Source: Rhizobiales bacterium NRL2 (GTDB taxonomy: Bacteria; Pseudomonadota; Alphaproteobacteria; Minwuiales; Minwuiaceae). From it: a stretch of 64,000 nucleotides of DNA. Below are positions 5,582 to 59,946 of the stretch, piece after piece (positions within the stretch are counted from its first letter, which is position 1; every line of letters begins with the position of its first letter). The notes under the pieces were generated by a model that did no database searches, had not been told where the DNA came from, and saw only the letters and a program-made list of their open reading frames with translations. The translations under genes were made by a program, and so were the position numbers. The DNA is taken from positions 2,487,001 through 2,551,000 of the forward strand of contig CP016093.1 of assembly GCA_001664005.1 (NCBI GenBank). The letters run 5' to 3'.

Positions 5582-7519
<1,938 letters not shown>

Positions 7520-7535
7520 CCGACTCCAGACGAAA

Positions 7536-7562: not shown

Positions 7563-7595
7563 GATTCTGGACCACTGGGAGGGGCTGGCGACTAG

Positions 7596-8735: not shown

Positions 8736-8760
8736 CCGGCGTGAGGGAAGGGCCCGGCCA

Positions 8761-9087: not shown

Positions 9088-9123
9088 TCGGGCCGGTTCG
9101 CGGATATCGGGAGGGAAGCGGTC

Positions 9124-9492: not shown

Positions 9493-9499
9493 ACGGCGC

Positions 9500-21161: not shown

Positions 21162-21237
21162 GGGCCCGTAGCTCAGTTGGTAGAGCAGCTGACTTTTAAT
21201 CAGCGGGTCACAGGTTCGAATCCTGTCGGGCTCACCA
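21162..21237 (+). tRNA. tRNA-Lys (anticodon UUU)
   Basis: A 76-base tRNA with encoded CCA. The acceptor stem pairs GGGCCCG with CGGGCTC. The D arm, the anticodon loop CTTTTAA with TTT at the anticodon, and the T arm around GGTTCGAATCC are all regular. The 3' portion from base 21192 is repeated exactly at 59899, so this gene is the attachment site of the island. The tRNA stays intact because the repeat rebuilds its 3' half. Confidence 0.97.
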
Positions 21238-44695: not shown

Positions 44696-44720
44696 CCCAT
44701 CGACAAGGAGGAAATCAATC

Positions 44721-45643: not shown

Positions 45644-45777
45644 TGCACGATTCATACGGAATGATGTGGGGCATGGGACTGATCTGGCTGTTGGTCCTAA
45701 TCCTCCTCGTCCTGGCCATCGCCGCGCTGGTCAAGTTTCTCTTTTTCCGGCGGCGAAAGGACGACGGCAATGGCTGA
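45640..45777 (+). CDS. 45-residue membrane protein
   Basis: A frame of 45 codons. It begins [13 protein letters not shown], has one membrane helix of about 22 residues ([20 protein letters not shown]) and ends in a positive tail [11 protein letters not shown]. The Met/His/Trp start is reminiscent of small copper-operon membrane proteins. Overlaps on both sides (4 bases with the cytochrome gene, 8 with the next) and high coding-style composition support that it is real. No function is known. Confidence 0.6.
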
Positions 45778-46366: not shown

Positions 46367-46902
46367 GACTGCTCGCGTTCGTCGCCATATCGGTAGTTCT
46401 CGTCACTTCAGCCTTGCGCGCCGAACAAGCGCCTATGTCGCTGCATGATGAACCGCGGCCAATCCCGCCGATCGGGTTCAAGGACGGCGATGGCCGCGAC
46501 TACGACCTCGATGACTGGCGCGGCCGGATCGTTCTGCTCAACATCTGGGCCACGTGGTGTCCGCCCTGCCGCCATGAAATGCCGACGCTCGACAGACTTC
46601 AGGATCAGCTCGGCGGCGAACGCTTCGAAGTTATCGCCCTTTCGATCGACAGGGCTGGCGTCGGAGTCGTTCGGAGCTTCTTCGAGGAGACGGGAGTGCG
46701 GCGACTTCGGCTTTTCATCGATGAAACGGGCGAGTCGGTCAGGGAACTCGGCGCCTTCGGATTGCCGACGACCCTGCTGATCGGCCCCCGGGGCAACGAA
46801 CTGGCCCGGCTCGTCGGACCTGCCGAGTGGGACACTCCGGAGATGGTCGCGTTCCTGGAGACCGTGATCGCCGAACATACAGGAAAGCAGACAAGGCCAT
46901 GA
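46363..46902 (+). CDS. TlpA-family thioredoxin-like protein
   Basis: A 179-residue exported thioredoxin-fold protein. The signal peptide ends near LRA, and the active site is WATWCPPCRHEM (C66, C69) with FGLPTTLLIG as the cis-Pro region. TlpA-type reductants reduce copper sites of SCO and oxidase proteins. It is adjacent to SCO and PCuAC genes here. The ATG overlaps the CcmG-like stop by 4 bases. Confidence 0.87.
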   Translation: MRLLAFVAISVVLVTSALRAEQAPMSLHDEPRPIPPIGFKDGDGRDYDLDDWRGRIVLLNIWATWCPPCRHEMPTLDRLQDQLGGERFEVIALSIDRAGVGVVRSFFEETGVRRLRLFIDETGESVRELGAFGLPTTLLIGPRGNELARLVGPAEWDTPEMVAFLETVIAEHTGKQTRP

Positions 46903-47213
46903 CGACTGAGGATATTCCTGACAAGGGAGCCCATGCCTCGCCGCGACGCACCCTTCCGGCCTGGCTGACAGAGCGCCGCACCCTCTTGCTGGCGGCGGCC
47001 GCGGCCGCAGGCGTCGGCCTGTTTTCGAACTGGAGTTGGCTGACGGCGGTCGGGGCCGCGCCGATCCTGCTCGCCTTCGTCCCGTGTCTGGCCATGTGCG
47101 CGCTCGGTTTCTGCATGCGCGGCGGCGGTGCGGGCGCGTGCAAGACCCGCGGCAGTGCATCAGTCAGGCCAGGAGTGCCTGACGTTACCCCTCAGCGTTC
47201 TGGAGAACTCTGA
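46899..47213 (+). CDS. Small membrane protein
   Basis: A 104-residue protein with two hydrophobic stretches (LLLAAAAAAGVGLF and WLTAVGAAPILLAFVPCLAMCALGF). The second has CxxxC (PCLAMCALGFC) that might bind metal or form a disulfide. No family can be assigned. It starts inside the TlpA-like gene (4-base overlap) and is followed after 28 bases by a Met-rich exported protein. Confidence 0.6.
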   Translation: MTTEDIPDKGAHASPRRTLPAWLTERRTLLLAAAAAAGVGLFSNWSWLTAVGAAPILLAFVPCLAMCALGFCMRGGGAGACKTRGSASVRPGVPDVTPQRSGEL

Positions 47214-47241
47214 GATCCAAAACCGAGAAAGGAAACCGACC

Positions 47242-47508
47242 ATGCGCAATACACTCAAGACCCTGACCGTTGTCGGCGGCCTGTTCGCCGCGACATCCCT
47301 TGCCTTCGCTGACGAGCAACAGCCGCAGCAGCCGAAGGAACGGATGCCGGGAATGATGCAGGACGAAAACGGGATGTCCGGCATGATGGGCATGATGCAG
47401 ATGATGCAGCAGATGGGTCCGATGATGGAGGAATGCCGCGAGATGATGGCGGCCATGACGGACCACATGAAATCGGGCCCGCACGCGCCCGACTCTCGCG
47501 ACGGCTGA
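47242..47508 (+). CDS. Met-rich exported small protein
   Basis: An 88-residue protein. The signal peptide (ending LAFA) is followed by a methionine-rich core in which MGMMQMMQQMGPMMEE is the densest part. Methionine-rich proteins of this type bind Cu(I). The start at 47242 was picked because the signal peptide begins there and GAAAGGAAA precedes it. A hairpin follows the stop. Confidence 0.72.
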   Translation: MRNTLKTLTVVGGLFAATSLAFADEQQPQQPKERMPGMMQDENGMSGMMGMMQMMQQMGPMMEECREMMAAMTDHMKSGPHAPDSRDG

Positions 47509-47516
47509 TTGTAATG

Positions 47517-47545
47517 GCCCGCCCGGGCATTCTGCGCGGGCGGGC
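47517..47545 (+). terminator. GC-rich hairpin after the Met-rich gene
   Basis: GCCCGCCCG (47517-47525) and CGGGCGGGC (47537-47545) form a 9-bp stem with an 11-base loop. No T-run follows. It may reduce read-through from the MCO part into the SCO part of the cluster. Confidence 0.5.
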
Positions 47546-47563
47546 GCATTCCGAGGTGATCCG

Positions 47564-48214
47564 ATGACTTCGTTCACATCCTCGAGGTTGGCCCGCATTC
47601 GGTATGCGCTCTGGGGTCTCGCGGTCGTCGCCGCGCTCGTTCTTGCCGGCCTGTACATGACGAGGACGCCAGCGCCGCAGGAAAGCGGGCAGGCGACCCG
47701 AACCGGAGAAGCGGTCATCCGCTCCGAATTCACATTGACTGACCACACCGGCAAGCGCGTAACCGAGGCCGAGTTTCTCGGACGCTGGCAGTTGGTGTTC
47801 TTCGGTTTCACCCATTGTCCCGATCTGTGTCCCACGACACTGGCCTATATGGCGAGGGTTCTCGACATGCTCGGCGGCGACACCGCGGAAAGGGTCGCGG
47901 CCCTGTTCATTACGGTCGACCCCGGCCGGGATACGCCGGAAGCGTTGGCCGAATATGTCTCGGCGTTCCATCCCGGGCTCGTCGGCCTGACGGGCAGCGA
48001 GGCCGATATCGCCGCCGCGGCGAACGCCTTTCGCGTCTTCTATGAACGGATGGAGCAAGACAGCGCCCCGGACGGATATGTCATGGCGCATTCGGGCTAC
48101 ATCTACCTGATGACCCCCGACGGACAGTTCGAGACCGGATTCCGCGAAAGCGACCAGCTCCCGGAAGAGATGGCCCGGAAGATCCGGGACGCCATGGAAA
48201 GGTATGGAGAATGA
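47564..48214 (+). CDS. SCO family copper chaperone
   Basis: A 216-residue SCO1/SenC protein with an N-terminal anchor (residues about 14-32). The copper ligands are C85 and C89 in FGFTHCPDLCP and H176 in MAHSG, matching the SCO CxxxC plus histidine site. SCO proteins deliver copper to cytochrome oxidase or act in thiol redox. The gene starts 18 bases after the hairpin and its stop overlaps the PCuAC gene, making the pair coupled. Confidence 0.92.
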   Translation: MTSFTSSRLARIRYALWGLAVVAALVLAGLYMTRTPAPQESGQATRTGEAVIRSEFTLTDHTGKRVTEAEFLGRWQLVFFGFTHCPDLCPTTLAYMARVLDMLGGDTAERVAALFITVDPGRDTPEALAEYVSAFHPGLVGLTGSEADIAAAANAFRVFYERMEQDSAPDGYVMAHSGYIYLMTPDGQFETGFRESDQLPEEMARKIRDAMERYGE

Positions 48215-48660
48215 GAACCGCCCTGCTGATCGCCTTGATCCTGGCGATGTCGCCACTGGCCGCAATGGCCGAGAATGCGGTCCGGATCATTGACCCGTGG
48301 GCACGCGCCACCATTCTCGCATCCCGTCCCGGCGTCGCCTATCTGACCATGGAGAGCGCCCGCGACGACCGGTTGGTGGCGGTCGAAAGCCCCGCCGCCG
48401 ACAGGGTGATGATCCACGCCATTGAGAACAGCGACGATGTCAACCGGATGATGAACCTCGACGCGCTGGATTTGCCGGCGGGCGAACGGGTCGTCCTCGC
48501 TCCGGGCGGCGCGCATCTGATGCTGACGGGGCTGAAGAAACGGCTGACCGAAGGCACGCGATTTCCCCTCACCCTGAGATTCGAACGCGCCGGCGCGATC
48601 ACGGTCTCTGTCCCGGTGCTCGGCGTCGGGGCCGGGGGTCCGGCGGAGGACATCCAATGA
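48211..48660 (+). CDS. Periplasmic copper chaperone PCu(A)C
   Basis: A 149-residue exported protein. The metal motif is H69, then 10 residues, M80, then 21 residues, H102 and M104, exactly the HX10MX21HXM pattern of PCuAC. It collects Cu(I) in the periplasm and passes it to SCO or to oxidase subunit II. The signal peptide ends about MA-EN. ATG overlaps the SCO stop and the stop overlaps the next gene. Confidence 0.92.
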   Translation: MRTALLIALILAMSPLAAMAENAVRIIDPWARATILASRPGVAYLTMESARDDRLVAVESPAADRVMIHAIENSDDVNRMMNLDALDLPAGERVVLAPGGAHLMLTGLKKRLTEGTRFPLTLRFERAGAITVSVPVLGVGAGGPAEDIQ

Positions 48661-49283
48661 AAGCTCTCCTGATCTTCGGCCTTCTCGTCGTGGCCATGCC
48701 GGCTTTCGCCCATCATCCTGGTGAACGGTTGGACGAAGTGATGGCTACCAAGGAGCCGGCCTTCGAGCCGACTGACCAGCGGTCGGTCCCGGGCCTGGCG
48801 CTGACGGTTGAGCAGGGCCAAAGCCTGACGCTCCGCGACCTCGGGGACAGCATCGTTGTTCTGAGCTTCGCGCCTCGCGATTGCGGCGCTCCCTGTGCGG
48901 AGCAACAGGAAATCCTCGCCTCCGTGCAGGAGCAGGTGAACGTCACGCCCATGAAGCAGATGGTGACCTTTCTGACGATCCTTGATCGCCCCGACGCCAA
49001 CGGTCCGTCATGGGACCGCGCAAACTGGCGATCAGCGTCGCCCTCGGACGAAACGGTGGCCGAAAGCGCTCGCCGCTTCACCGCACTGAGTGATCGGAGT
49101 CCATCGTTCCCGCTGGTTCACGTCATCGACAGGGGAGGCCGGCATGCCGGCCTGTTTCACGGAACCGCGTTCCGGCAGATCAATCTCGTCCTCTACATAA
49201 ACGGCCTGACGAACGCGCCCCCGGTTGCCGACACCTCGGAACCCGACAGCTGGTGGGACAGGGTCATCGGGTTCTTCAAATGA
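48657..49283 (+). CDS. SCO/thioredoxin-like periplasmic protein
   Basis: A 208-residue exported protein. The signal peptide ends at AFAHHPGE, so the mature N-terminus has two histidines. A CxxxC pair (DCGAPCAEQ) and the general order of strands resemble SCO proteins, but the histidine ligand is not certain; VHVIDRGGRHAGLFHG may provide it. It ends in a C-terminal amphipathic tail DSWWDRVIGFFK. This is probably a diverged SCO paralogue working with the two upstream genes. Confidence 0.65.
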   Translation: MKALLIFGLLVVAMPAFAHHPGERLDEVMATKEPAFEPTDQRSVPGLALTVEQGQSLTLRDLGDSIVVLSFAPRDCGAPCAEQQEILASVQEQVNVTPMKQMVTFLTILDRPDANGPSWDRANWRSASPSDETVAESARRFTALSDRSPSFPLVHVIDRGGRHAGLFHGTAFRQINLVLYINGLTNAPPVADTSEPDSWWDRVIGFFK

Positions 49284-49783
49284 ACGGTTCCCGGACAGCG
49301 GGCGCGCACGTTCCTGCCAGCGCGCTCACATGGCTGACGGCTCTGAGACGTTACATGGGGTTCGTGGCGGCCGCGAACCTGATCTGGGAGTTCGCGCACA
49401 TGCCGCTCTATACGCTGTGGGAAACCGGCTCCGCAGCAGAGATCGTTTTCGCCGCTGTTCATTGCACCGGCGGCGATATCCTCATCGCGCTCAGCGCCGT
49501 CATGCTGTCCTTGTTCCTGTTCGGGAACACAGGTTGGCCCGCCGAACGACGGGTTCAGGTTGTAGCGGGCGCTATCGCCTTCGGGCTTGCCTATACGATG
49601 TTCAGCGAGTGGCTGAACATCGAGGTGCGGGAAGCCTGGGCCTATCGCGAGTTGATGCCTGTGATCCCCGTTCTTGATGCGGGCCTCAGCCCGGTCCTGC
49701 AATGGATCGTGGTGCCGCTCGCCGGCTTCTGGTGGGCGCTCCGGATCAATACGGTTCCTGCTCGCGGAGAAGCAGAGGCATGA
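49280..49783 (+). CDS. Membrane protein of unknown function
   Basis: A 167-residue protein with four hydrophobic helices, including YMGFVAAANLIWEF, DILIALSAVMLSLFLF, RRVQVVAGAIAFGLAY and VLQWIVVPLAGFWWAL. No family is recognised. The ATG overlaps the stop of the previous gene and its own stop overlaps the ccdA start, so it belongs to the operon. A role in copper handling or redox is only inferred from position. Confidence 0.6.
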   Translation: MNGSRTAGAHVPASALTWLTALRRYMGFVAAANLIWEFAHMPLYTLWETGSAAEIVFAAVHCTGGDILIALSAVMLSLFLFGNTGWPAERRVQVVAGAIAFGLAYTMFSEWLNIEVREAWAYRELMPVIPVLDAGLSPVLQWIVVPLAGFWWALRINTVPARGEAEA

Positions 49784-50523
49784 CAGCCGAACTCAGTCTT
49801 GTCGGCCTGGTCGTGACCTTCCTGGCCGGAGCGATTTCGTTCCTTTCTCCCTGCGTTCTGCCGCTTGTGCCCGGCTACGTCTCCTACATCGCCGGCGGCA
49901 CGGCCCGGATCTCCGCCTCGCCGGGCCCTCGGCGTTTTCCATTCGCTGCAGTGGCGCTCAGCCTCTTCTTCGTGCTGGGGTTCTCGACGGTCTTCATCAT
50001 CCTGGGCGCCAGCGCGACGGCGTTGGGTCAACTGATGCTCGGCTATCGCTACGAGCTGAACATCGTTGGCGGCACGGTGGTCATCGTTTTCGGGCTTTTC
50101 ATGCTGGGCTTCGCCCGTTTCGGCCTGATGCAGCGGGATCTGCGTTTTCACCTGTCGATTCCCGGTGGCCGCCCGGTCGCTGCCTATGTCCTCGGTCTCG
50201 CATTCGCGTTCGGCTGGACTCCTTGCATCGGGCCGATTCTGGGCGCGATTCTGACGACAACAGCGGCGTCCGCGACGGTCTCCGAGGGCACGACCCTGCT
50301 TGCGGTCTACTCGGCCGGGCTTGGCGTGCCCTTCCTCCTGGCTGCGGCGTTCACCGAGCGACTGGCGCGGCGTCTGCGGCCCATCGGCCACCTGGGCCGC
50401 CGTCTGCATCAGGTCGCCGGGGTGATCCTGATCGTGATGGGCGTTGCGATGATCACCGACTATCTCTCTGCCTTCGCATTCTGGCTGCTCGACACCTTTC
50501 CGATCCTGGGACAGATCGGATAG
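49780..50523 (+). CDS. ccdA: Cytochrome c biogenesis protein CcdA
   Basis: A 247-residue membrane protein of six helices. The redox cysteines are C25 in ISFLSPCVLPL and the one in FGWTPCIGPIL, both in membrane positions typical of CcdA. It carries electrons from cytoplasmic thioredoxin to periplasmic CcmG/TlpA proteins, two of which are encoded upstream. The ATG overlaps the previous stop. This is the last gene of the plus-strand copper operon; merR follows on the other strand. Confidence 0.92.
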   Translation: MTAELSLVGLVVTFLAGAISFLSPCVLPLVPGYVSYIAGGTARISASPGPRRFPFAAVALSLFFVLGFSTVFIILGASATALGQLMLGYRYELNIVGGTVVIVFGLFMLGFARFGLMQRDLRFHLSIPGGRPVAAYVLGLAFAFGWTPCIGPILGAILTTTAASATVSEGTTLLAVYSAGLGVPFLLAAAFTERLARRLRPIGHLGRRLHQVAGVILIVMGVAMITDYLSAFAFWLLDTFPILGQIG

Positions 50524-50628
50524 CGAACGCCCGTGCGGGATACCTGGTGCTCGAAGCAGTTGCGAGAGTGATCGGACACTGCACGGTCCAGCTATCGCGG
50601 GGCCGGTTCAGTGATCGATCCGACATGA

Positions 50629-51042
50629 TTATTCCGTCAGCGCATCCAGGACCGGGCATTCCGGGATTTCATCGCCTGAGCATTTGGCAGAGGTATCCGA
50701 CAGGACCTGCTCGATGCGCTTGAGGTCGGCGATCTTCGCACGCACATCGGCGAGGTGCCGTTCGGTGCGCTCCTTCACCTCTGCGCAGGTTTGCGTGCCG
50801 CCATCGACGAGGGCGAGCAGCCCTCGGATGTCGTCAAGTGAGAAGCCCAGCTCGCGTGCCCGCAGAATGAAGCGCAGCCGTTCCACATGGCCGTTGTCGT
50901 AGAGGCGATAACCGGCCTCGGTGCGCGGCGGTTCCGGCATCATGCCGATCTTCTCGTAGTAGCGGATGGTCTCAAGGTTGCAGCCGGTGCGGCGCGCAAG
51001 CGCGGCGCGGTGCAATCCCGTCCCTGACGTTTCGTGCGCCAT
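50629..51042 (-). CDS. merR: MerR-family mercury regulator, copy 1
   Basis: A 137-residue MerR regulator. The winged helix-turn-helix is TGCNLETIRYYEKIGMMPEPPRT, and the dimer helix and metal loop have cysteines C86, C121 and C129. The 35-residue gap between the first two equals that of Tn21 MerR (C82-C117). The second gap is 8 residues instead of 9. It is divergent from merT and overlies the 19-base promoter at 51061-51091. It should repress without Hg(II) and activate with it. Confidence 0.88.
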   Translation of the reverse strand: MAHETSGTGLHRAALARRTGCNLETIRYYEKIGMMPEPPRTEAGYRLYDNGHVERLRFILRARELGFSLDDIRGLLALVDGGTQTCAEVKERTERHLADVRAKIADLKRIEQVLSDTSAKCSGDEIPECPVLDALTE

Positions 51043-51060
51043 CTGATCTCCAGAAACCTC

Positions 51061-51091
51061 TTGAGCCTGTAGTCGCTACAGACCCTACCTT
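51061..51091 (+). promoter_or_regulatory. mer promoter/operator (MerR-type, 19-base spacer)
   Basis: TTGAGC (51061-51066) and TACCTT (51086-51091) lie 19 bases apart. The dyad CTGTAG, TCG, CTACAG fills the front of the spacer. Overlong spacing with a central palindrome is the mark of MerR-family activation by DNA twisting. It drives merT on the plus strand, and merR begins on the minus strand 19 bases to the left. Confidence 0.75.
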
Positions 51092-51122
51092 CAAGGATGA
51101 ACAAGATCGAGGACAGACCGAC

Positions 51123-51521
51123 ATGCATGAGGTGCGAACCAGTTCGGAGGCCCACGGAACCCCGGAAAACGCCGGAGATAGCAGAAAGCGCTGGTATGCG
51201 GCCGGCGGGCTGATCGGCGCGGTCCTGGCGTCATCGTGCTGCATTGCGCCGCTCGCCCTGCTCACGCTCGGCGTCTCGGGGGCGTGGATCGGCAATCTGA
51301 CGGCGCTGGAGCCTTACAAACCATACTTCGCCGCAGTCGCCCTCGTCTTCATCGGGCTCGGCTTCCATCAGGTGTATGTGAAGCCGAGGAAGGCTTGCGC
51401 CGAGGACAGCTACTGCGCGCGCCCGCAGTCCTCAATCATCACGCAAGCGGCCCTCTGGATCGGGACGGCGTTGGTCATACTGGCGCTGACGATCAACTGG
51501 TGGGCGCCGCTGTTTTACTAG
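51123..51521 (+). CDS. merT: Mercuric ion transporter MerT
   Basis: A 132-residue inner-membrane protein with three helices. The membrane cysteine pair is C39-C40 in LASSCCIAPL, and a second pair lies in the cytoplasmic loop KACAEDSYCAR. It takes Hg(II) from MerP and passes it to MerA. It is the first gene after the mer promoter. merP starts 11 bases downstream. Confidence 0.93.
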   Translation: MHEVRTSSEAHGTPENAGDSRKRWYAAGGLIGAVLASSCCIAPLALLTLGVSGAWIGNLTALEPYKPYFAAVALVFIGLGFHQVYVKPRKACAEDSYCARPQSSIITQAALWIGTALVILALTINWWAPLFY

Positions 51522-51532
51522 GAAACAAACAC

Positions 51533-51862
51533 ATGAAACGACCTCTCATCGTTGCCACGGCGGCGGTTGTCCTGGGCATCGGCGCCTCGCTTTTCCTCGT
51601 ACCCCAGTCGCAGGTGAACGCGCAGTCGACCAACGTGGCGACGGAGACCGCCACTGCAACCTTCGCCATCGAGAACATGACCTGCGCCCTGTGCCCGATC
51701 ACCGTGCGCAAGGCCATGGAAGGAGTAGAAGGCGTGCGCTCCGTCCAGACGGACCTGGAGGCCAGAACCGCCACGGCCGTGTTCGACCCAAGGGTCGTGT
51801 CTCCGGCAGATATCGCCGCCGCCTCGACGAATGCAGGATATCCCGCCAGATCGAAACCGTGA
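51533..51862 (+). CDS. merP: Periplasmic mercury-binding protein MerP
   Basis: A 109-residue exported protein with a heavy-metal-associated domain. The signal peptide ends near VNA, and the mercury-binding cysteines are C51 and C54 in NMTCALCPI. It shields the periplasm and delivers Hg(II) to MerT. The ATG at 51533 gives the signal peptide directly. Confidence 0.93.
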   Translation: MKRPLIVATAAVVLGIGASLFLVPQSQVNAQSTNVATETATATFAIENMTCALCPITVRKAMEGVEGVRSVQTDLEARTATAVFDPRVVSPADIAAASTNAGYPARSKP

Positions 51863-51872
51863 TGGCGCGCGG

Positions 51873-52122
51873 ATGAAGGACGCCACGATCATCAAGACCG
51901 GTGTCATCGGCACGGCCATCGCCGCCATCTGCTGCTTCACACCCCGTGCTGGTCATCGGGCTGAGCGTGGTTGGCCTCTCGGCATGGCTCGGCTGGCTGG
52001 ACTACGTGCTGCTGCCCGCGCTCGCGACTTTCATTGGCATCACGGCCTACGGCCTCTGGCGGCGGCGGCAGTCTATCGCCTGCCGCCAATCCGATCCCGA
52101 AGCAACGAAGGAGACCAGATAA
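51873..52122 (+). pseudogene. merF: Mercury transporter MerF, broken by a one-base frameshift
   Basis: The first 24 codons give MKDATIIKTGVIGTAIAAICCFTP, including the CC pair of MerF. The reading frame then shifts at a run of four C (51942-51945). In the +1-shifted frame, VLVIGLSVVGLSAWLGWLDYVLLPALA and the second helix continue to the stop at 52122. Deleting one C restores an 82-residue MerF. The gene is non-functional as given, or the run is a sequencing error. Position between merP and merA is normal. Confidence 0.85.
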
Positions 52123-52123
52123 C

Positions 52124-53548
52124 ATGGTCGATTGCTGCACACCGCCCTCGGGCGGACGCTACGACCTCGCCGTCGTCGGCGCAGGCTCCGCGGGGTTCTC
52201 CGCCGCCATCACCGCCGCCGAACAGGGCGCCAATGTCGCCCTTATCGGCCACGGCACAATCGGCGGCACCTGCGTCAATGTGGGCTGCGTGCCGTCGAAG
52301 ACCATGATCCGCGCCGCCGAGGCCCTGCACGCTGCGCGCACCGCCAGCCGTTTCCCGGGCCTTGCCGGAGAGGCGCAGGTGACGGACTGGCAAGCCCTCG
52401 TGAGCGCCAAGGACGATCTCGTGGCGAGCCTCCGTCAGGGTAAGTACATCGACCTGCTGTCCGCCTGGCCCGGTATATCCTATCTCGACGGGACCGCACG
52501 CCTGAGCCCTGACGGTATCGCCGTGGACGGGCAGACCGTGCCGGCAGGGAAGGCCGTCATCACGACCGGCGCCGCGCCGGCAAAGCCGGATATTCCCGGT
52601 ATCGACGATGTTCCCTGGCTGTCCAGCACAACGGCGCTGGAACTGACGGCGCTGCCCCGCTCGCTGATCGTCATCGGCGGTGGCTATGTCGGCTGCGAGC
52701 TCGCGCAGATGTTTGCGCGCATGGGCACGGAGGTGACGCTGGTAACCCGCTCGCGTCTGCTGCCCGAGGCCGAGCCGGAAATCTCGGAAGCGCTGACCGG
52801 CTATCTGCGCGACGAAGGCCTCATCGTTCGCGATGGCCTCGCATACCGGCAGATTGCACGAGCGGACGACCGCGTTGCGCTGACCGTGGAGATCGAGGGG
52901 CGAGGGGAGACGTTGAGGGCGGAACAGGTGCTGGTCGCGACGGGGCGGACGCCCAATACGCGCGGGCTCGATCTTCCGCAGAACGGCGTCCAACTCGCCA
53001 ACAATGGCGGCGTCGCGGTCGACGAGCGGATGCGCACCTCCAAGGCCGATCTCTACGCCGCCGGCGATGTGACCGGCCGCGACCAGTTCGTCTACATGGC
53101 CGCCTATGGCGCCAAGCTCGCCGCCCTCAACGCGCTGAATGGCGACAGCCTTGTCTACGACAACAGCGCCATGCCCTGGGTGGTGTTCACCGACCCGCAG
53201 GTGGCTGGCGTCGGTCTGAGCGAAGCCGCGGCCCGAGAAGCGGGCTACGACGTCAAGACCTCGGTCCTGCCGCTCGACCAGGTGCCCCGGGCGCTTGCGG
53301 CGCGCGATACGCGCGGGCTCATCAAGCTGGTCGCCGACGCGGAAACCGACCGCCTGCTGGGCGGCCAGATCCTTGCGCCCGAAGGCGCCGACAGTGTCCA
53401 GACGCTCACGCTTGCCCTCAAGGCCGGCATGACGGCAAGGGGACTCGGCGAGACGATATTCCCGTATCTCACCACCGTGGAAGGGCTGAAGCTGGCCGCA
53501 CAGACCTTCGAAAAGGACGTGGCGATGCTGTCCTGCTGTGCGGGGTGA
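52124..53548 (+). CDS. merA: Mercuric reductase MerA
   Basis: A 474-residue flavoprotein disulfide reductase. FAD motif GAGSAGFSAAI, redox cysteines C50 and C55 in GGTCVNVGCVPSK, NAD(P)H motif GGGYVGCELA and the C-terminal vicinal pair C471-C472 (LSCCAG) are all present. The usual N-terminal HMA domain (NmerA) is missing, though the protein begins MVDCC. It reduces Hg(II) to volatile Hg(0). The ATG at 52124 follows the merF stop by 1 base. Confidence 0.94.
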   Translation: MVDCCTPPSGGRYDLAVVGAGSAGFSAAITAAEQGANVALIGHGTIGGTCVNVGCVPSKTMIRAAEALHAARTASRFPGLAGEAQVTDWQALVSAKDDLVASLRQGKYIDLLSAWPGISYLDGTARLSPDGIAVDGQTVPAGKAVITTGAAPAKPDIPGIDDVPWLSSTTALELTALPRSLIVIGGGYVGCELAQMFARMGTEVTLVTRSRLLPEAEPEISEALTGYLRDEGLIVRDGLAYRQIARADDRVALTVEIEGRGETLRAEQVLVATGRTPNTRGLDLPQNGVQLANNGGVAVDERMRTSKADLYAAGDVTGRDQFVYMAAYGAKLAALNALNGDSLVYDNSAMPWVVFTDPQVAGVGLSEAAAREAGYDVKTSVLPLDQVPRALAARDTRGLIKLVADAETDRLLGGQILAPEGADSVQTLTLALKAGMTARGLGETIFPYLTTVEGLKLAAQTFEKDVAMLSCCAG

Positions 53549-53609
53549 CTCCCGTCGTCGCCGCGCGTGAGAACCGCTCGCCCGGTACAGGTCATCGCTG
53601 CCGCCGTGC

Positions 53610-53640
53610 TTGACCCTGCACCATGGTGCGGGGATCAGAA
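53610..53640 (+). promoter_or_regulatory. Second MerR-type promoter with 19-base spacer
   Basis: TTGACC (53610-53615) and TCAGAA (53635-53640) are 19 bases apart, with the dyad GCACC/GGTGC (CTGCACC, AT, GGTGCGG) between. It precedes the second merR gene by 22 bases, in the same direction, so that regulator should control its own operon. Confidence 0.6.
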
Positions 53641-53661
53641 TGATCAGCAGGGAGGAAGCGC

Positions 53662-54132
53662 ATGGCGAAGGCGAACATGACAATCGGCAGAGCGGCGAAG
53701 GCGGCAGGCGTGCGGATCGCGACGATCCGGTTCTACGAGCGCCGCGGCCTGATTGCGCAGCCGCGCAAGCCGGAGAGCGGATACCGGACCTATCCCGACG
53801 AAACCGTCGCGCGCATCCGCTTTATCCGGCAGGCCCAGGAGATCGGCTTCTCCCTGGCCGAGGTCGCTGAGCTTCTCTCATTGCGCGCCGACCCTCGCGC
53901 AGACTGTGGCGACGTACGCGCTCGCGCGATCGGGAAGCGCGTCGAGGTCCAGGCCAAGCTCGATCAGCTTACGCAAATGCGCGCCGCGCTTGATGAGCTG
54001 ATCGCCAGTTGTCCGGGCGGCGGCAACGTCAGGGCCTGCACGATTCTCGATGCCATGCAGTGCGAACCGGCAGGTGCCGGGACAGCGACTTCTTCGACGA
54101 CGTTCGGATCTAGAAAAGGCAGCGGGACATGA
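53662..54132 (+). CDS. MerR-family mercury regulator, copy 2
   Basis: A 156-residue MerR regulator. The DNA-binding part is GVRIATIRFYERRGLIAQPRKP. The metal-loop cysteines are C82, C117 and C126, the same numbers and spacing as the mercury ligands of Tn21 MerR, with ADCGDV and CPGGGNVRACTILDAM around them. It heads an operon with a CopZ-like protein, a CcdA-like protein and the P-type ATPase, all likely under its control through the promoter at 53610. Mercury is the best guess for its signal. Confidence 0.85.
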   Translation: MAKANMTIGRAAKAAGVRIATIRFYERRGLIAQPRKPESGYRTYPDETVARIRFIRQAQEIGFSLAEVAELLSLRADPRADCGDVRARAIGKRVEVQAKLDQLTQMRAALDELIASCPGGGNVRACTILDAMQCEPAGAGTATSSTTFGSRKGSGT

Positions 54133-54341
54133 AGACGACGACCCTGACCATCGAGGGTATGCACTGTGACGGCTGTGCCCGGACAATCGAGGTGCTGGTT
54201 GCCCGGGTGCCGGGTGTTCGACAGGCTGAGGTCTCCTTCGACGAACGCCGCGCCCGCATATTGCACGATCAGTACGCGGCCTCGACTACCGACCTCATAG
54301 AGGCGATCGCCAAAGGCGGTTTCACCGCAAACTCAAACTGA
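54129..54341 (+). CDS. CopZ-like heavy-metal-associated domain protein
   Basis: A 70-residue ferredoxin-like HMA domain with the metal motif GMHCDGC (C13, C16). It lacks a signal peptide and is cytoplasmic. Likely a metallochaperone that carries the metal to the P-type ATPase encoded two genes downstream. The start overlaps the merR copy 2 stop by 4 bases. Confidence 0.88.
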   Translation: MKTTTLTIEGMHCDGCARTIEVLVARVPGVRQAEVSFDERRARILHDQYAASTTDLIEAIAKGGFTANSN

Positions 54342-54343
54342 AC

Positions 54344-55024
54344 ATGCTTGAAACCAGCTTCATGGGCATCGTCGCGATCCCGGCCGGTCTTGGCCTGATC
54401 GGCTTTGTCGAACCGTGTTCGATCGGCTCAAGCCTGGTCTTCATCAAGTACCTGGAAGGCAAAGGCCCGCTCGCCAAGCTTGCCGAAACATCCCTGTTCG
54501 CGCTTACGCGGGCAGTTTTCATCGGGCTGCTGGGCGTTCTGGCTGCCGTGATCGGGTCGTTGTTTCTCGATCTGCAACGCGGCGCCTGGCTGCTTCTCGG
54601 CGTGGCCTATGTCGGCTTGGGCCTGTTGCTTGCGACAGGGCGCGCCCGGGCGCTCATGGTCTCGTTGGGCCCAGGCCTCAAACGGCTGAGCGGGCGACGC
54701 GGGTCCGCGGGGCTGGGCCTGTTGTTCGGGCTCAACATCCCGGCCTGCGCCGCGCCATTGCTGTTTGCGTTGCTGGCGGGAGCGGCCGCATCCGATGACG
54801 CGAGCGCCCTCACCGGGTTTGCCGCCCTCGCTGTGTTCGGCTTCGCGCTGTCGCTACCGCTGGTGGCGATCGTGCTGATCCCCGGCGCACACGCCCTTCT
54901 CGATCGTTTTGCCGCGCTGTCGAGGCGTTATCCGGTCGTCGCGGGACTGGTCCTCGTCGCGCTTGGCGCGTGGTCGATCGGGTTCGGCCTGTTTGCCGAA
55001 ATTAACGCCGGCGCGACATCGTGA
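54344..55024 (+). CDS. CcdA/DsbD-like membrane protein
   Basis: A 226-residue membrane protein with about six helices. Cysteines lie in FVEPCSIGSS (C25) and in NIPACAAPLL, in the same positions as the redox pair of CcdA. It could move electrons or metal across the membrane. Such genes occur beside mercury and copper ATPases, and some were proposed as mercury transporters. It starts 2 bases after the CopZ-like gene. Confidence 0.75.
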   Translation: MLETSFMGIVAIPAGLGLIGFVEPCSIGSSLVFIKYLEGKGPLAKLAETSLFALTRAVFIGLLGVLAAVIGSLFLDLQRGAWLLLGVAYVGLGLLLATGRARALMVSLGPGLKRLSGRRGSAGLGLLFGLNIPACAAPLLFALLAGAAASDDASALTGFAALAVFGFALSLPLVAIVLIPGAHALLDRFAALSRRYPVVAGLVLVALGAWSIGFGLFAEINAGATS

Positions 55025-55042
55025 CCTGAAAGGATACACGTC

Positions 55043-57478
55043 ATGACGACAGTGCAGATGCCGCAGGATTCGGTCTCGCCGTGGCGCGAGGAGCCTTCCG
55101 AACGTCAGGGGCGCGCCCGCATCCGCGCCCGGATTGGCGGGCTGCACTGCTCGCTGTGCACCGGCACGATCGAGAAAGCGCTCGGCCGGCAGAAGGGCGT
55201 CGACAAGGTCGCTGTGAGCCTGACGCACGAGCAGGCGCTGGTCGAATACGATCCAGAGATCACAACGCCCGAGACCCTGCTCGGCACGCTCCGCGACATC
55301 GGCTACACGATCCACGATCCGAACAAGCTGCGACCGTTCGACGAAGAGGAACGCGAACTGGTCGCCGAGGGCCGTCGGTTTCTGACCGCCACGGCCTTCA
55401 GCCTCCTGTCGATTGCGCTGATCACCGATCCGGCCGGCCCGTTATCCCTGATCCTGCCGGCGCTGGCGACGGTCAGCCTGGTGGCCTTCGTCTTCCTCGT
55501 GCTCAGGGCGCGCGGGCTGTGGCCGGCGATCGCCGGCGCCGGGGGGCTCGGCACCATCACGGTCGGACTGCTCGCCCTCAAGAGCGAAGGAATGCTGGCC
55601 GGCGCCACGCCCTGGATCGTGGGCGTGCTGGCGGCGGTGCTCGTCTTCGGCGTCGCACGTCACATACTCACAATGGCTTATCAGGCGCTGCGCCGCGGCA
55701 TCCTGAACCAGCACGTTTTGCTGGAAGCGGGCGCCTTTGCCGGGCTGGCCGGCGGGATCATCGGGCTTGTGCTTGATCGCCCCGGCTATCCGACGGCGCC
55801 ATTCTTCGCGGTCGCGGTCATGGTTGCGACCTATCACATCTTCTCCGAATGGCTATCGCTGATCGTCAAGACGAGATCCTCCCAGGCGGTCAAACGCCTC
55901 CTCGACCTTCAGCCGGACACCGCCCGCGTTCAGCGCGACGGTCAGGAGGTCGAAATCCCGCTTTCCGAAGTGGCGCAAGGGGACCTTGTGCGTGTCCGCC
56001 CGGGCGAGCGCCTGCCCGTGGACGGCGAGGTTGTCGAAGGCCGCTCCGCCGTGGATCAGTCGCTCGTCACCGGCGAACCCATGCCGGTCGAGCGGCAGGC
56101 AAGCGACACGGTTATTGGCGGCACCATCAACGGCAATGGCACCCTGCTGGTCCGGGTCACGGCCCTTGGCGCGGAGAGCTTCCTGCAACGCGTCGCGCGC
56201 GAGGTGGAAGATGCCCGCGCCTTGAAGCCCGGCCTGCTGCATCTCGTCGACCGCGTGCTCAGGGTCTACACGCCCGCCGTGCTCTCGATCTCGATCCTCT
56301 CTTTTCTTGGCTGGGCGTTTCTTCCCCAATTGCTGGGCTTTTCACCGGACCTTCAGCGCGCGGTGTTCGCGGGCCTCAGCGTACTCGTCATGGGCTATCC
56401 GTGCGCCGTTGGCATATCCGCGCCGCTCTCGATCGTTCGTGGCGCGGGCGAGGCGGCCGAGAAAGGTATCCTGATGCGCACCGGTGAGGCGTTCCAGGGC
56501 TATCGTCTGGTGCGCCAGATTGCCTTCGACAAGACCGGCACGCTGACCGAGGGCCGGCCACGCGTGCACGAAGTCGAAGCGGTGTCGGGCGATACCGATG
56601 GGTTACTCGCGCTCGCCGCGGCCGCCGAAGCCGCGTCAGAACACCCGCTGGCCGAAGCAGTCGTCGAAGCGGCCTTCGAGATGGGCCTGACCCCGCCCGA
56701 TGCCGAAAGCTTCGAGGCGGCGCCGGGCAAGGGGGTCGTGGCCCGCATCGATAGCACGGAGGTACTGGTCGGCAGTCAGCGCTTCGTCACGGAGGGCGGT
56801 GTCGATCTCACGTCGCTTGAGCGACGGGTCGGCGAACTGGAAGATATCGGGCGCACGGTCATCGTAGTCGCTCGGGACGGCGAGCCTGTCGGACTTCTCG
56901 CGCTCGGTGACACACTGCGCGACGATGCGGCCGAAACTATCGCCGGGCTTCGCGATGCCGGTGTTCGCACTGTGCTTGTCACCGGAGATAACGAACGCAC
57001 CGCAGCCCGCGTCGCCGGATACCTTGGCATTGATGAGGTTCACGCCGGAGTGCTGCCGGGCGAGAAGGCTGAGGTGATCCGCGATCTCCAGACGCGCGGG
57101 CGCACGGCGGTGGTGGGCGACGGCATCAACGACGCGCCCGCCCTGATGCAGGCCGATGTCGGCATCGCCATGGGCTCGGGCACCGACATCGCCATCGACG
57201 CCGCCGACGTCATCATCCTCAACAACCGGATATCGAATGTCGCCCGAGCGCAGGAGATCAGCCGCGGGGGCTATCGGAAGATGCTCCAGAATGTCTCCCT
57301 TGCTTTCCTGTTCAACGGCATCGGCGTGCCGGTCGCCGCGACAGGCTTGCTCTATCCCGTCTGGGCCATGGTCGCCATGGCGGCCAGCGTGACCGCGATC
57401 TTCGTCAATTCGCTCTGGGGTCGGCCGCGCCTGTTCTTCGACGCGATCCTCAGTGTGGGACGGCCGTTGGAGAAATAG
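55043..57478 (+). CDS. Heavy-metal P-type ATPase with YPC metal-site motif
   Basis: An 811-residue P1B-type ATPase. Domains in order: one HMA domain (C36, C39 in GGLHCSLC), membrane helices, the actuator TGEP motif, the membrane metal site GYPCAVG at 451-457, the phosphorylation site DKTGT at 496-500, then TGDN and GDGINDAP. The usual CPC is replaced by YPC, so only one cysteine is left in helix 6. The cargo is unclear; its regulator suggests mercury or another soft metal. Start ATG at 55043 follows GAAAGG. Last gene of the mer block. Confidence 0.88.
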   Translation: MTTVQMPQDSVSPWREEPSERQGRARIRARIGGLHCSLCTGTIEKALGRQKGVDKVAVSLTHEQALVEYDPEITTPETLLGTLRDIGYTIHDPNKLRPFDEEERELVAEGRRFLTATAFSLLSIALITDPAGPLSLILPALATVSLVAFVFLVLRARGLWPAIAGAGGLGTITVGLLALKSEGMLAGATPWIVGVLAAVLVFGVARHILTMAYQALRRGILNQHVLLEAGAFAGLAGGIIGLVLDRPGYPTAPFFAVAVMVATYHIFSEWLSLIVKTRSSQAVKRLLDLQPDTARVQRDGQEVEIPLSEVAQGDLVRVRPGERLPVDGEVVEGRSAVDQSLVTGEPMPVERQASDTVIGGTINGNGTLLVRVTALGAESFLQRVAREVEDARALKPGLLHLVDRVLRVYTPAVLSISILSFLGWAFLPQLLGFSPDLQRAVFAGLSVLVMGYPCAVGISAPLSIVRGAGEAAEKGILMRTGEAFQGYRLVRQIAFDKTGTLTEGRPRVHEVEAVSGDTDGLLALAAAAEAASEHPLAEAVVEAAFEMGLTPPDAESFEAAPGKGVVARIDSTEVLVGSQRFVTEGGVDLTSLERRVGELEDIGRTVIVVARDGEPVGLLALGDTLRDDAAETIAGLRDAGVRTVLVTGDNERTAARVAGYLGIDEVHAGVLPGEKAEVIRDLQTRGRTAVVGDGINDAPALMQADVGIAMGSGTDIAIDAADVIILNNRISNVARAQEISRGGYRKMLQNVSLAFLFNGIGVPVAATGLLYPVWAMVAMAASVTAIFVNSLWGRPRLFFDAILSVGRPLEK

Positions 57479-57619
57479 GAACTCGTAGCAAGACCAGCCG
57501 TCTCAGGAATCGTCCGCACGATGGTTAACAAGGGTACCTGTGTGAAAGGACGCTATGCATGTTCTCCGAAGATATATAGAAACGCGCCGCCCATCGTGCT
57601 GTTCCAGTTGCTACCTCCA

Positions 57620-57905: not shown

Positions 57906-58613
57906 TCAGCAAAAATCGACGAGACCTTCGCGTTCCTTTCGATAAGCGCGGATGCGTCGGTTGAGGGTGGCGAGAGACGGCGCCCGATAGCCTGCCGCCA
58001 CGCAGGCATAGCCGACCAGGCGTCGGATATCGGTCTCGCGGGTGTCGTCTCCGCAGATCATTGGCAGCTGCATCTTCCACTCGACCCAGATATCGAAGAG
58101 GCGGAACAGCAGCATGTCCCGGCCTTCCGAGCCACGTGGGCCGAACCTGGGTCTCTCCGCAAGCTCGGCGGCCCGCTCCAATATCGGCACATCCGCGGAG
58201 TCGCAGGCAGAGAGGAACTGCCCCGGAGAGAGGTGGCTGAGGGACAGCCGCTCTGAGCCAGGCGGCATCTCGTCCAGCGCCATGGCGATCCACGGCAGGG
58301 CGCCTTCCGGCCAATGTTGGTTGCCGACACTGTCCGGCGCGTAAGAGGTGATGGCGCCGTTGTCCTTGATCTCGCCGATCCAGTCCCGGATCTGGCGTGC
58401 GAAGAGCTTCCGCGCCGGTCGGTCGTCATCGAAGCAGGCCCGGTTCACGGGAGCCCGGACGATCGCGCTGTCGATCAGCCTGGCTGTCCGCTCATCCGCG
58501 TCGAAGCGCTCTATGATTTCGCCCAAGTGCCTGCCGAACTGATCCCGGGCAATGCTCCCACCGCGCGACCAGACGGGCAGGGGGCTGCGGGGGCGTCCCC
58601 GACTACGTGGCAT
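57906..58613 (-). CDS. Unknown island protein beside the integrase
   Basis: A 235-residue soluble protein without recognised domains. Its N-terminus is basic (PRSRGRPRSP), and the middle is rich in Asp/Glu. There is a possible helix-turn-helix-like stretch near the C-terminus (APSLATLNRRIRAYRKER). The ATG at 58613 overlaps the integrase stop by 11 bases, so translation may be coupled. A role in replication or in recombination control is possible but not shown. Confidence 0.6.
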   Translation of the reverse strand: MPRSRGRPRSPLPVWSRGGSIARDQFGRHLGEIIERFDADERTARLIDSAIVRAPVNRACFDDDRPARKLFARQIRDWIGEIKDNGAITSYAPDSVGNQHWPEGALPWIAMALDEMPPGSERLSLSHLSPGQFLSACDSADVPILERAAELAERPRFGPRGSEGRDMLLFRLFDIWVEWKMQLPMICGDDTRETDIRRLVGYACVAAGYRAPSLATLNRRIRAYRKEREGLVDFC

Positions 58614-59772
58614 GCCGGATGTCCTGGACCGTCCTCGACCACTGCTCGAGCGCATCGCGTTTCTCGGCCAGATAGCTGAACCGGTTATAGACCTGCGCCA
58701 CCATGCCCACGGATTGCCCGGACCTGAGCTGGATCCGCTCGATCAGGCTCTCGGCGACGCCCAGGCGGGCAAGCCCCGTTGCCTGAGTTCGCCGCAGATC
58801 GTGGAGCCGCCAGTCCGTCACGCCCGAACCCTTATCGAGGCTGCGTTTGAGCTTGGAGAGTCCCTTGATGGGGCCGCCGAAGCGACCACCGAAGACGACA
58901 TCGCCTTGCCGTTCGATGGTGCGCAAGATCGCTCGGGTGGTGCGGGGCAGGGGCACCTCGGCGGCGGTACGGCTCTTGGTGGTTTCGCCGCGGACGTGCC
59001 AGACTTCGACGTCGATGTCGCGCCATTGCATCTCGGTGACCTGACCCACACGCTGTCCCGTGAGCAAGAGGAAGCGGATCATCGCGCCGTAGGTTCCAAG
59101 ACTGCCACAGGCCTTCCAGATGGCGGCGACCTCCGGATCGGTCAGGACCCGGTCCCGTGACGCGGGCGGCTTCGGGCCGCGCATCGAGACGATCGGCGAC
59201 TGGTCGACGAGTTCCCGGTCAACGGCATAGCTGAACAGTGCGGACATGGTTGACCATATGGCCCGTGCCACAGCCGGCTTGTCGGCATGCCGGTCGAGCA
59301 GGCGGCGAATGTCCGTCCGCAGGATCTCACGGATCGGTCGGTCGCCGAGCTCCCCCAGAACGTAGCGTCGAAGGGTGCCCTCATAGTGCGAGACAGTCCG
59401 GGGGCTTTTGCCTTCCTTCAGCTTGAATTCTGTGAACCGTTCGGCAACGGCACGCAGGCGCCCGGCGTCATGAGCCCGTCGTCGTGCTGCAACGGATGCC
59501 TTGGCGGCTACGCCTTCACCGGCATGGATCTCGGCCCGTGTCGACTTCGCCGCCTTTCGCGCATCGGCCAGGCTCAGCTCCGGATATCGACCGAGCGTCA
59601 CGGTCCGCTGACGGCCATCCGGCCCGAAGGCGCGCAGCTGGAAACTTTTCAGGCCGGTGGGCGCCACGCGGACGCAGAGACCGTCCACCAGGCCGTCCTT
59701 CTGCAGGTAGGATTTGGCACCCGGCCTGAGGCTCTTGAGGGTGCGGTCGGTCAGGCTACGTTGTAATGACAT
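58603..59772 (-). CDS. Tyrosine recombinase (island integrase)
   Basis: A 389-residue phage-type integrase. The N-terminal arm-binding domain (residues 10-95) is of the DUF4102 type common in tRNA-targeting islands. The catalytic domain has R241 (LLTGQRVGQ), H324 and R327 (LHDLRR), and the tyrosine Y362 (AQVYNRF). The second histidine/tryptophan position is not obvious (RSGQS). The start is 127 bases from attR. The promoter region overlaps the TTGTAATG repeat, hinting at self-regulation. It most likely catalyses integration at tRNA-Lys. Confidence 0.93.
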   Translation of the reverse strand: MSLQRSLTDRTLKSLRPGAKSYLQKDGLVDGLCVRVAPTGLKSFQLRAFGPDGRQRTVTLGRYPELSLADARKAAKSTRAEIHAGEGVAAKASVAARRRAHDAGRLRAVAERFTEFKLKEGKSPRTVSHYEGTLRRYVLGELGDRPIREILRTDIRRLLDRHADKPAVARAIWSTMSALFSYAVDRELVDQSPIVSMRGPKPPASRDRVLTDPEVAAIWKACGSLGTYGAMIRFLLLTGQRVGQVTEMQWRDIDVEVWHVRGETTKSRTAAEVPLPRTTRAILRTIERQGDVVFGGRFGGPIKGLSKLKRSLDKGSGVTDWRLHDLRRTQATGLARLGVAESLIERIQLRSGQSVGMVAQVYNRFSYLAEKRDALEQWSRTVQDIRHAT

Positions 59773-59898: not shown

Positions 59899-59946
59899 AC
59901 TTTTAATCAGCGGGTCACAGGTTCGAATCCTGTCGGGCTCACCATT
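59899..59946 (+). repeat. attR: 48-bp copy of the tRNA-Lys 3' end
   Basis: Identical to 21192-21239. It holds only the anticodon loop to CCA part and is not a tRNA gene. It marks the right limit of the island; chromosomal sequence resumes at about 59947. Confidence 0.93.

Follow-up and report, generated by a model that had tools for sequence, protein, structure and literature searches.

A Tyr-Pro-Cys P1B-type ATPase in a MerR-headed operon of Rhizobiales bacterium NRL2, a candidate mercury-regulated soft-metal exporter

Results

The window analyzed here, a stretch of 64,000 nucleotides from Rhizobiales bacterium NRL2 (contig CP016093.1, positions 2,487,001 to 2,551,000), holds a 38.7-kb island at tRNA-Lys that contains a mer operon and, behind it, an operon ending in a P1B-type ATPase with a Tyr-Pro-Cys (YPC) metal site. 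The left end of the island is the tRNA-Lys gene (21162..21237, plus strand) and the right end an exact 25-nt repeat of the tRNA-Lys 3' end (59920..59944, plus strand), next to a gene for a tyrosine integrase (58603..59772, minus strand; PF13356, PF00589, PF22022). The mer operon is headed by merR1 (50629..51042, minus strand), which a tree places next to the merR genes from other mer operons, and continues on the plus strand with merT (51123..51521; PF02411, E 3.5e-30 in a scan beginning at 51075, with the start set manually), merP (51533..51862; an open frame with ends placed by hand and a 93% identical copy in L185), a merF-like gene whose reading frame is broken here (51873..52122; intact in a relative), and merA (52124..53548), encoding a mercuric reductase without an N-terminal HMA domain (TIGR02053, 539.2 bits against a cut-off of 454.45). 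The block of mer and YPC genes is 93.8% identical in the same-genus genome G193, though the island site there is empty.

The YPC operon comprises, in order and all on the plus strand, merR2 for a MerR-family regulator (53662..54132), a gene for an HMA (CopZ/MerP-like) chaperone with the motif GMHCDGC (54129..54341), a gene for a CcdA-like membrane protein (54344..55024), and the ATPase gene (55043..57478). Since merR2 and the HMA gene overlap by 4 nt and the subsequent gaps are 2 nt and 18 nt, the four genes likely form a single transcription unit. Of the two partner proteins named in the initial annotation, the CopZ-like chaperone matches PF00403 (E 5.9e-14); the CcdA-like protein reached no Pfam (E 1e-3, including DsbD_TM) or NCBIfam (E 1e-4) family, though its relatives in L100 and L105 are annotated CcdA. 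Two of its cysteines, C25 in EPCS in an early segment and C135 in NIPACA in a middle one, are placed as in the CcdA/DsbD membrane electron carriers, and both are conserved in >=95% of 44 sequences; the unmatched DsbD_TM profile sets the protein apart from those carriers. A match to NF041115 hinted at a selenocysteine version of the HMA protein; the HMA frames beside the L041 and L054 pumps appear to be ordinary open frames.

The last open reading frame encodes a complete P1B ATPase of 811 aa, containing ...LVMGYPCAVGISAP..., with the transmembrane metal site GYPCAVG (codons of Y452-P453-C454 at 56396..56404, plus strand) and an N-terminal HMA domain (GGLHCSLC) whose CSLC metal-binding motif (55148..55159, plus strand) has C36 and C39 invariant in 26/26 sequences. 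The catalytic motifs TGEP, DKTGT, SEHPL, TGDN and GDGIND are all found, and P1B-type heavy-metal ATPases are recognized by just such a set (DKTGT, TGEP, SEHP, GDGxND) together with a P1B profile, here TIGR01525 at 548.7 bits over a cut-off of 346.25. The first description of the gene, as a P1B-type ATPase with a GYPCAVG site in a MerR-headed operon, was therefore borne out by translation, motifs and gene order. An AlphaFold2 model of the protein reached pLDDT 79 and pTM 0.66, and structure comparison returned P1B folds, e.g. 7r0g at Z 25.5 and rmsd 4.3 over 633 residues. The subfamily models do not discriminate between metals, because the curated cut-offs of both the Cu model (TIGR01511, 442.1 over 397) and the Cd model (TIGR01512, 385.1 over 313.5) are passed.

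A search with six peptides returned 379 relatives of the ATPase; the peptides excluded the YPC region but included TYHIFSEW and PVWAMVAM, so that conservation of H265, E269, M776 and M779 across 80 loci is partly built in. Motif reading covered 79 of the 80 loci, L027 having no frame with the DKTGT marker. YPC was present in 91 of 109 distinct P-type ATPases drawn from the loci, and a branch with an SH-aLRT of 100 separates the 27 YPC rows from all others in a tree of 45 rows, which rules out chance or sequencing error as the source of the motif. As judged from alignment and tree, YPC marks a separate clade and is shared throughout it rather than being an isolated case. Its members (91 sequences, all chosen as relatives) occur in several bacterial phyla and in haloarchaea, and the family is old and widespread. 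The caveat first attached to the motif, that YPC might be a common variant with a well-defined substrate, thus applies in its first half, and no defined substrate was found in the literature.

MerR2 has cysteines at positions 82, 117 and 126, plus 134. Its best NCBIfam match is the MerR equivalog TIGR02051, at 128.7 bits below the cut-off of 150.85 yet highest among the metal-sensor models, and in a tree it forms a separate clade, not nested within mer-operon MerR. C82, C117 and C126 are invariant in 35/35 aligned MerR2 sequences, rows that were picked at >=48% identity; among MerR-type frames near YPC pumps with MerR2 as best match, all three cysteines are found in 48 of 54 and not in six, and some frames best matching other references are without one or more of them. 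In 20/42 cases merR2 and HMA share a frame. By eye, Cys82 stands where E. coli CueR has Ser, and ZntR also has Cys at divalent-type positions. The exact mercury set C82/C117/C126 that had been reported for this regulator is hence present in full, and we do not regard it as diagnostic of mercury sensors, since PbrR, a sensor of lead, presumably has this Cys spacing too. If the triad is common to divalent-metal sensors, as we assume, and given that the Cd cut-off is passed, the pump could be a broad exporter of divalent soft metals (Cd, Zn, Pb, Hg) with a ZntA-like function gained by convergence. This appears quite improbable to us, as the operators are not ZntR-type and the P1B-2 Zn/Cd/Pb pattern, which we take to be CPC plus a Lys and an Asp located in the final helices as in ZntA, does not occur in the YPC pump: in the columns of N758 and M779, Lys and Asp (presumably the ZntA type) stand in 3/16 CPC rows and in no YPC row.

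A putative MerR2 operator-promoter, TTGACC-CTGCACCATGGTGCGGGGAT-CAGAAT with a 20-bp spacer and a perfect inner palindrome, lies at 53610..53641 (plus strand) and is the sole match in the 64 kb to a loose pattern, with no match in the window to the strict pattern TTGA[CT][CT][CT][CT]GTA-N6-TAC[GA]G. The inner palindrome is also found in G193, and from its letters we read the site as a diverged but symmetric copy of a mercury-type operator. Strict operators precede merR2 in 40/49 loci (38/47 without two duplicate loci), these being the loci with merR2 at >=48% identity among 87 scanned, and 17 further matches (16 without a duplicate) stand just before the pump. The strict pattern was absent from 1.40 Mb of reversed sequence and from 0.79 Mb surrounding 48 CPC/CPH ATPases, as well as from 35/80 close loci and from the distant YPC records L099, L102, L103, L104, L128, L129 and L130. 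Operators of close relatives (CCGTAC-N4-GTACGG) agree with the MerR consensus of proteobacteria, TCCGTAC-4-GTACGGA, and differ from the CueR site ACCTTCCC and the ZntR site ACTCTGGAG, all as given in the accessible text of PMC1526738, which also assigns ZntA a zinc-type operator; they further agree with the Tn21-type mer promoter in L101. Tn21-type merR-merTPA systems share with the present locus a three-Cys MerR, this operator form and linked merA, merT and merP, and differ in their 19-bp spacer, as against 20 bp in all but one of the MerR2 operator matches parsed; here, MerR2 heads its own operon, and an ATP-driven pump takes the place of MerT. What an operator sequence reveals is the DNA target of MerR2, not the metal to which the regulator responds.

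Linkage to merA was scored within at most ~8 kb on each side of the pump, and merA was found in 24/80 YPC loci, with 56/80 showing none in the stretch examined, versus 0/39 CPC/CPH loci (Fisher p 4e-5); where >=6.5 kb was available on both sides, the counts were 16/47 and 0/28. The 39 controls comprise 35 CPC, 3 CPH and one unread locus (L145, whose motif was not read cleanly), and include few ZntA-type pumps, as they were drawn with a CopA-like query. Two loci are apparent duplicates, as L132 and L046, and likewise L134 and L043, have contigs of equal length, and near-identical pairs such as L065/L066 and L021/L023 were retained in the counts. Among plasmids, merA accompanied the pump in 7/11 YPC records, chosen by rank and taxon and including three closely related haloarchaeal copies and L128 despite its 3-kb flank, versus 0/9 CPC records, the only nine controls, with 8-kb flanks; five further non-YPC plasmid records (3-5 kb flanks, no annotated merA) were left out. 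The haloarchaeal L103, L129 and L130 have merA, one of them also merB, and no gene annotated MerR in the stretch. In an even draw of 190 genomes of the class, a close YPC gene turned up in 4 other genomes, each with merA in the stretch; the pattern ATGGGNTAYCCNTGYGCN matched 8/190, and G064, G145 and G186 were taken as chance matches because their stretches contain no pump relative at E 1e-5. In the NRL2 genome each of the two YPC pumps follows a MerR2 module in the vicinity of merA, and within 10-11 kb of its five CPC/CPH pumps there is neither merA nor a CcdA relative. The linkage could reflect hitch-hiking in metal islands; several YPC loci hold only MerR, HMA, CcdA-like and ATPase genes among the families sought.

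The closest characterized pumps are the CopA P1B-1 Cu(I) ATPases (3rfu/4bbj, 3j09, 7r0g), which share with the YPC pump the P1B fold and the Asn and Met of the second copper site (N758 and M779), at 37% identity to 3rfu and 7r0g. A divergent CopA, exporting Cu(I)/Ag(I) via Cys454 and Met779 from within a mixed copper-mercury island, would agree with this, with the mostly Cu ATPases among the solved pumps nearest by sequence, with the Cu cut-off (the Cd cut-off being passed too), and with the copper genes nearby: multicopper oxidase, SCO and cytochrome c genes lie upstream in the island together with thioredoxin-like and CcdA genes, as they do in L098, and copper genes also neighbor the pump in L101. 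We nevertheless consider it unlikely, as the copper path is altered throughout the clade, with the first Cys of CPC replaced (YPC in 91/91 clade rows, all chosen as relatives), F757 in place of Tyr beside the conserved Asn (91/91) and V783 in place of Ser after the conserved Met (88/91), and as both Cys82 of MerR2 and the mercury-type operators depart from copper control. What we take to be the entry Met and the two pathway Glu of CopA are also replaced in the clade, by Q/H and by A and S, respectively. Of the P1B-1 residues defined in the accessible part of PMC7558416, a conserved Tyr plus a Met and a Ser of the last helix, the pump retains the Met. The same copper genes, combined with mercury-type regulation, could instead speak for mercury-induced copper delivery, in which a CcoI-like pump with the CcdA-like protein and SCO as partners would refill periplasmic cuproproteins after mercury damage; the altered copper path and the loci reduced to four gene families make this a very doubtful prospect.

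Published YPC pumps, as far as the available portions of PMC4541151 and PMC11082258 go, do not settle the substrate. S. solfataricus CopA is said to use YPC and confer copper resistance (PMC4541151, in excerpt); we did not accept YPC as a copper class on this basis, since that paper itself warns of misalignment and CPCALGLA is reported for S. metallicus CopA proteins (PMC3595675, in excerpt). CopAL6, a synthetic environmental copA-like gene, shares the YPC site and has HMA domains at both ends, an architecture also seen in the second YPC pump of NRL2; according to the excerpted text it lowered copper resistance of E. coli without copA and gave the highest copper accumulation, so that it was no copper exporter there (PMC11082258).

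Discussion

The most likely reading of these genes is a mercury-regulated soft-metal exporter with Hg(II) as the leading substrate and copper as its main rival, and we hold it slightly more probable than an even call that the operon is a mercury-responsive efflux module added to the mer operon. The mercury link is drawn from C82/C117/C126 of MerR2, the mercury operators of relatives and the merA linkage. The original proposal, an exporter for mercury or another soft metal that is separate from the MerT/MerA path, has accordingly gained ground on the side of regulation and gene neighborhood (controls 0/39 and 0/9), and Hg export by the pump is what we infer from them. On binding cytosolic Hg(II), MerR2 would activate transcription from its own promoter. 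Hg(II) would then be relayed by the small HMA protein, together with the N-terminal HMA domain of the pump, to the site in the membrane. There Cys454 and the conserved Met779, perhaps joined by Met776, His265 and Glu269, may substitute for the two-cysteine CPC site, and ATP hydrolysis would power outward movement of the ion. We picture the CcdA-like protein as a transmembrane carrier of reducing equivalents that would keep the thiols metal-competent. Such a module may serve as a second line beside MerT import and MerA reduction, and as a stand-alone route where merA is not nearby.

Extending this to the whole clade, we propose, tentatively and with somewhat less than even confidence, that YPC pumps, bacterial and haloarchaeal alike, are dedicated ATP-driven exporters of Hg(II) or organomercurials. 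Their Tyr-Pro-Cys site would use a single cysteine aided by Met, His and Glu, and in Proteobacteria they would answer to a mercury MerR, in many cases one that carries an HMA metal-delivery domain as a fusion. If true, efflux would stand beside import and reduction as a further branch of mercury resistance. In the available text of PMC11227200, mercury resistance usually consists of MerT/MerP import and MerA reduction, in contrast to ATPase transport for most other metals. Efflux has hardly been considered as a route to mercury resistance. The unusual YPC site lends itself to testing how a single cysteine can be enough, and the genes with their promoter are small enough for testing in a laboratory strain. 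A YPC clade under mercury-type control would also add to the P1B classification, in which subgroup P1B-7 is still listed without a known substrate (PMC7558416, accessible part). Plasmid records with close relatives annotate the pump, where at all, as a 'cation-translocating' or 'heavy metal translocating' P-type ATPase.

Operon and pump

Reading the open frame at 55043-57478 upheld the initial annotation, which had reported a P1B ATPase with YPC in place of CPC: the protein is complete (811 aa), and carries one N-terminal HMA domain (GGLHCSLC) and the transmembrane metal site GYPCAVG. Equally borne out was the proposed MerR-headed operon, in which four genes were read, namely merR2 (53662-54132), an HMA chaperone (54129-54341), a CcdA-like membrane protein (54344-55024) and, last, the pump. 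In 44 sequences of the CcdA-like protein, the cysteines C25 and C135 are each at least 95% conserved, as expected for a carrier of electrons through thiols, and a redox role may be proposed; a CcdA-type partner with at least 40% identity is found at 44 of 80 YPC loci versus none of 39 controls. The pump scores above the cut-off of TIGR01525 (general heavy-metal ATPase), but it also exceeds those of the copper and cadmium subfamilies alike, so the metal cannot be read from library annotation. We hold it improbable that the pump is a broad divalent exporter.

YPC marks a broad clade

Scanning genome contigs returned 379 relatives of the pump. The 80 best were retained as loci, and YPC was present in all 79 of these that were read. 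The 109 distinct P-type ATPases from the loci comprise 91 with YPC, 16 with CPC, one with CPH and one with none of these. In a 45-row tree, built by a quick search with the motif columns kept in, the 27 YPC rows occupy one side of a branch versus 18 others (SH-aLRT 100), and by this sequence evidence YPC marks a clade. According to record names it spans Proteobacteria, Myxococcota, Thermodesulfobacteriota, Calditrichota, Actinomycetota, Cyanobacteriota, Bacillota, Bacteroidota, Deinococcota and haloarchaea, although many records are metagenome bins and single phylum labels may therefore be wrong. In fold, operon type and mobile island the system is of an ordinary kind; out of the ordinary are the breadth of this P1B clade, its reworked metal path, and the wiring of its proteobacterial members to mercury-type operators.

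A second YPC pump, only distantly related (51% over residues 192-794) and bearing HMA domains at both ends, is encoded in this genome at 6987-9530 of the stretch G000:C1:3415000-3430000. It lies downstream of merA, of a CcdA-like gene and of a MerR2 that has a strict mercury operator. In a class relative (L138:5004-9540) the match to the YPC pump is split in two, perhaps a decaying copy, with two operators and merA still present.

A reworked metal path

The roles of the compared positions (an entry Met and two pathway Glu) are presumed from CopA structures. When 91 YPC rows were aligned with 16 CPC rows, a comparison that the initial annotation had suggested, the metal path differed at several positions. 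YPC rows carry Q223 (90/91) and H224 (89/91) at the entry-Met position, A256 (82/91) and S272 (89/91) at the two pathway Glu positions, Y452 instead of the first Cys (91/91), F757 instead of Tyr (91/91) and V783 instead of Ser (88/91), and they retain N758 (91/91). H265 (91/91), E269 (86/91) and M776 (89/91) are characteristic of YPC rows, and M779 (90/91) is retained, but conservation at these four positions is partly selected, as two of the six peptides used to scan for relatives overlap them; the peptides do not overlap YPC or F757. The site with the conserved Tyr, Met and Ser follows the consulted part of PMC7558416.

According to PMC4541151, S. solfataricus CopA uses YPC. Export of copper or silver is a reading that we regard as rather unlikely. 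The consulted sections of PMC11082258 describe CopAL6, which, like the second pump of this genome, has YPC and is flanked by HMA domains on both sides; in an E. coli without copA, this pump lowered resistance to Cu, and Cu accumulation was highest with it. Such behavior is unlike that of a copper exporter, although a single gene expressed without its partners is weak evidence.

Mercury-type control

An initial search for promoters of MerR type in front of merR2 yielded 20 matches in 48 frames, from which a strict operator pattern was derived. It equals the mercury signal (CCGTAC-N4-GTACGG) published in PMC1526738, as far as the consulted part goes, and the Tn21-type promoter in one of our loci (L101). 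As the pattern was written post hoc, reversed sequences and 48 CPC/CPH control stretches served as guards against bias, and it was absent from both. It precedes merR2 in 40 of the 49 loci having this gene (38 of 47 minus two duplicates), and 17 further matches lie immediately before the pump (16 minus one duplicate). Overall, at least one strict operator occurs in 45 of 80 close loci, in a few before merT or unassigned genes; it was not found in the other 35, nor in the distant YPC records L099, L102, L103, L104, L128, L129 and L130. Many YPC loci without it carry another MerR with thioredoxin and CcdA, or a CsoR-like or ArsR-like regulator. The window's own putative operator, TTGACC-CTGCACCATGGTGCGGGGAT-CAGAAT, is diverged, with both half-sites altered symmetrically, and its palindrome recurs in the same-genus genome G193.

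All 35 aligned MerR2 rows have C82, C117 and C126. In a tree MerR2 forms its own clade beside, and not nested within, mer-operon MerR, and its nearest metal-named plasmid relatives, among the best 30 of 255, are named Hg(II)-responsive MerR, at about 45-52% identity. MerR2 and an HMA domain share a single open frame in 20 of 42 loci, and in L098 they are annotated as one 675-nt gene.

The MerR2 with a C-terminal HMA domain in one frame (within L001-L080, e.g. L001:7503-8195) resembles a metal sensor plus its own delivery domain. An alternative module downstream of the YPC pump (L099:12785-14163; also L026, L030, L036, L040 and L055) consists of a different MerR with CC at the first Cys position, a small thioredoxin and CcdA, often with an MFS transporter. 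Between a CcdA-like gene and a YPC pump, L105:7050-8573 encodes a 507-aa protein that has no Pfam match (E 0.01) and has a mercury-type operator to itself, at L105:7020.

Linkage to merA

Within the flanking stretch, merA was found at 24 of 80 close YPC loci versus none of 39 CPC/CPH loci (34 from 58 class genomes by a CopA-like query, five from the own genome), and at 16 of 47 versus none of 28 where both flanks reach at least 6.5 kb; pump and merA lie 0.2 to 6.4 kb apart. The remaining 56 YPC loci showed no merA, so the YPC module is not tied to reduction. Because islands may simply collect metal genes, plasmid records were also compared, and merA was present in 7 of 11 with YPC versus none of nine with CPC, the latter all chosen among environmental matches in the best 60 of 4017 records, which places clinical plasmids outside the comparison, and three of the former seven being related haloarchaeal copies. 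Those haloarchaeal plasmids (L103, L129, L130) have merA beside the YPC pump, L130 also merB, although their regulators are different ones, of helix-turn-helix type and ArsR-like in L103. An even draw of 190 class genomes yielded four others with a close YPC gene, all with merA in the stretch, although two are the contigs of L046 and L043 and the L138 pump is matched as two segments.

We lean slightly towards the pump exporting mercury, which the initial annotation had named alongside other soft metals; that it delivers copper during mercury stress seems a poor candidate. The consulted parts of the open-licence literature (PMC1526738, PMC11227200, PMC10433974, PMC7558416, PMC3595675 and PMC8475189) describe no mercury P1B pump, and searches of that literature for mercury and P-type ATPases together with CcdA and merA, or together with mercury efflux and the mer operon, found no paper.

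An apparently mobile block

Directly upstream of the YPC operon lies a mer operon, made up of merR1, merT, merP, merF with its reading frame broken, and merA. An exact copy of the final 25 nt of tRNA-Lys (21213-21237) is present at 59920-59944, where an integrase adjoins, and in G193 the window flanks are contiguous at tRNA-Lys, an empty site. Yet 50180-57481 is matched on another G193 contig at 93.8% identity, a match found at E 1e-160 only in G193 and the own genome among seven same-genus genomes searched (own included). This suggests that the mer and YPC operons move together as a unit. The merF frame broken here (51873-52122) is intact in G193. A third merA region of the genome (G000:C1:678000-690000), with merR, merT and merP in L089, has no YPC pump within its stretch. 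The island of the window also carries copper and redox genes at 43229-50523, namely a multicopper oxidase, DUF411, cytochrome c, two thioredoxin-like proteins, SCO and CcdA (DsbD_TM).
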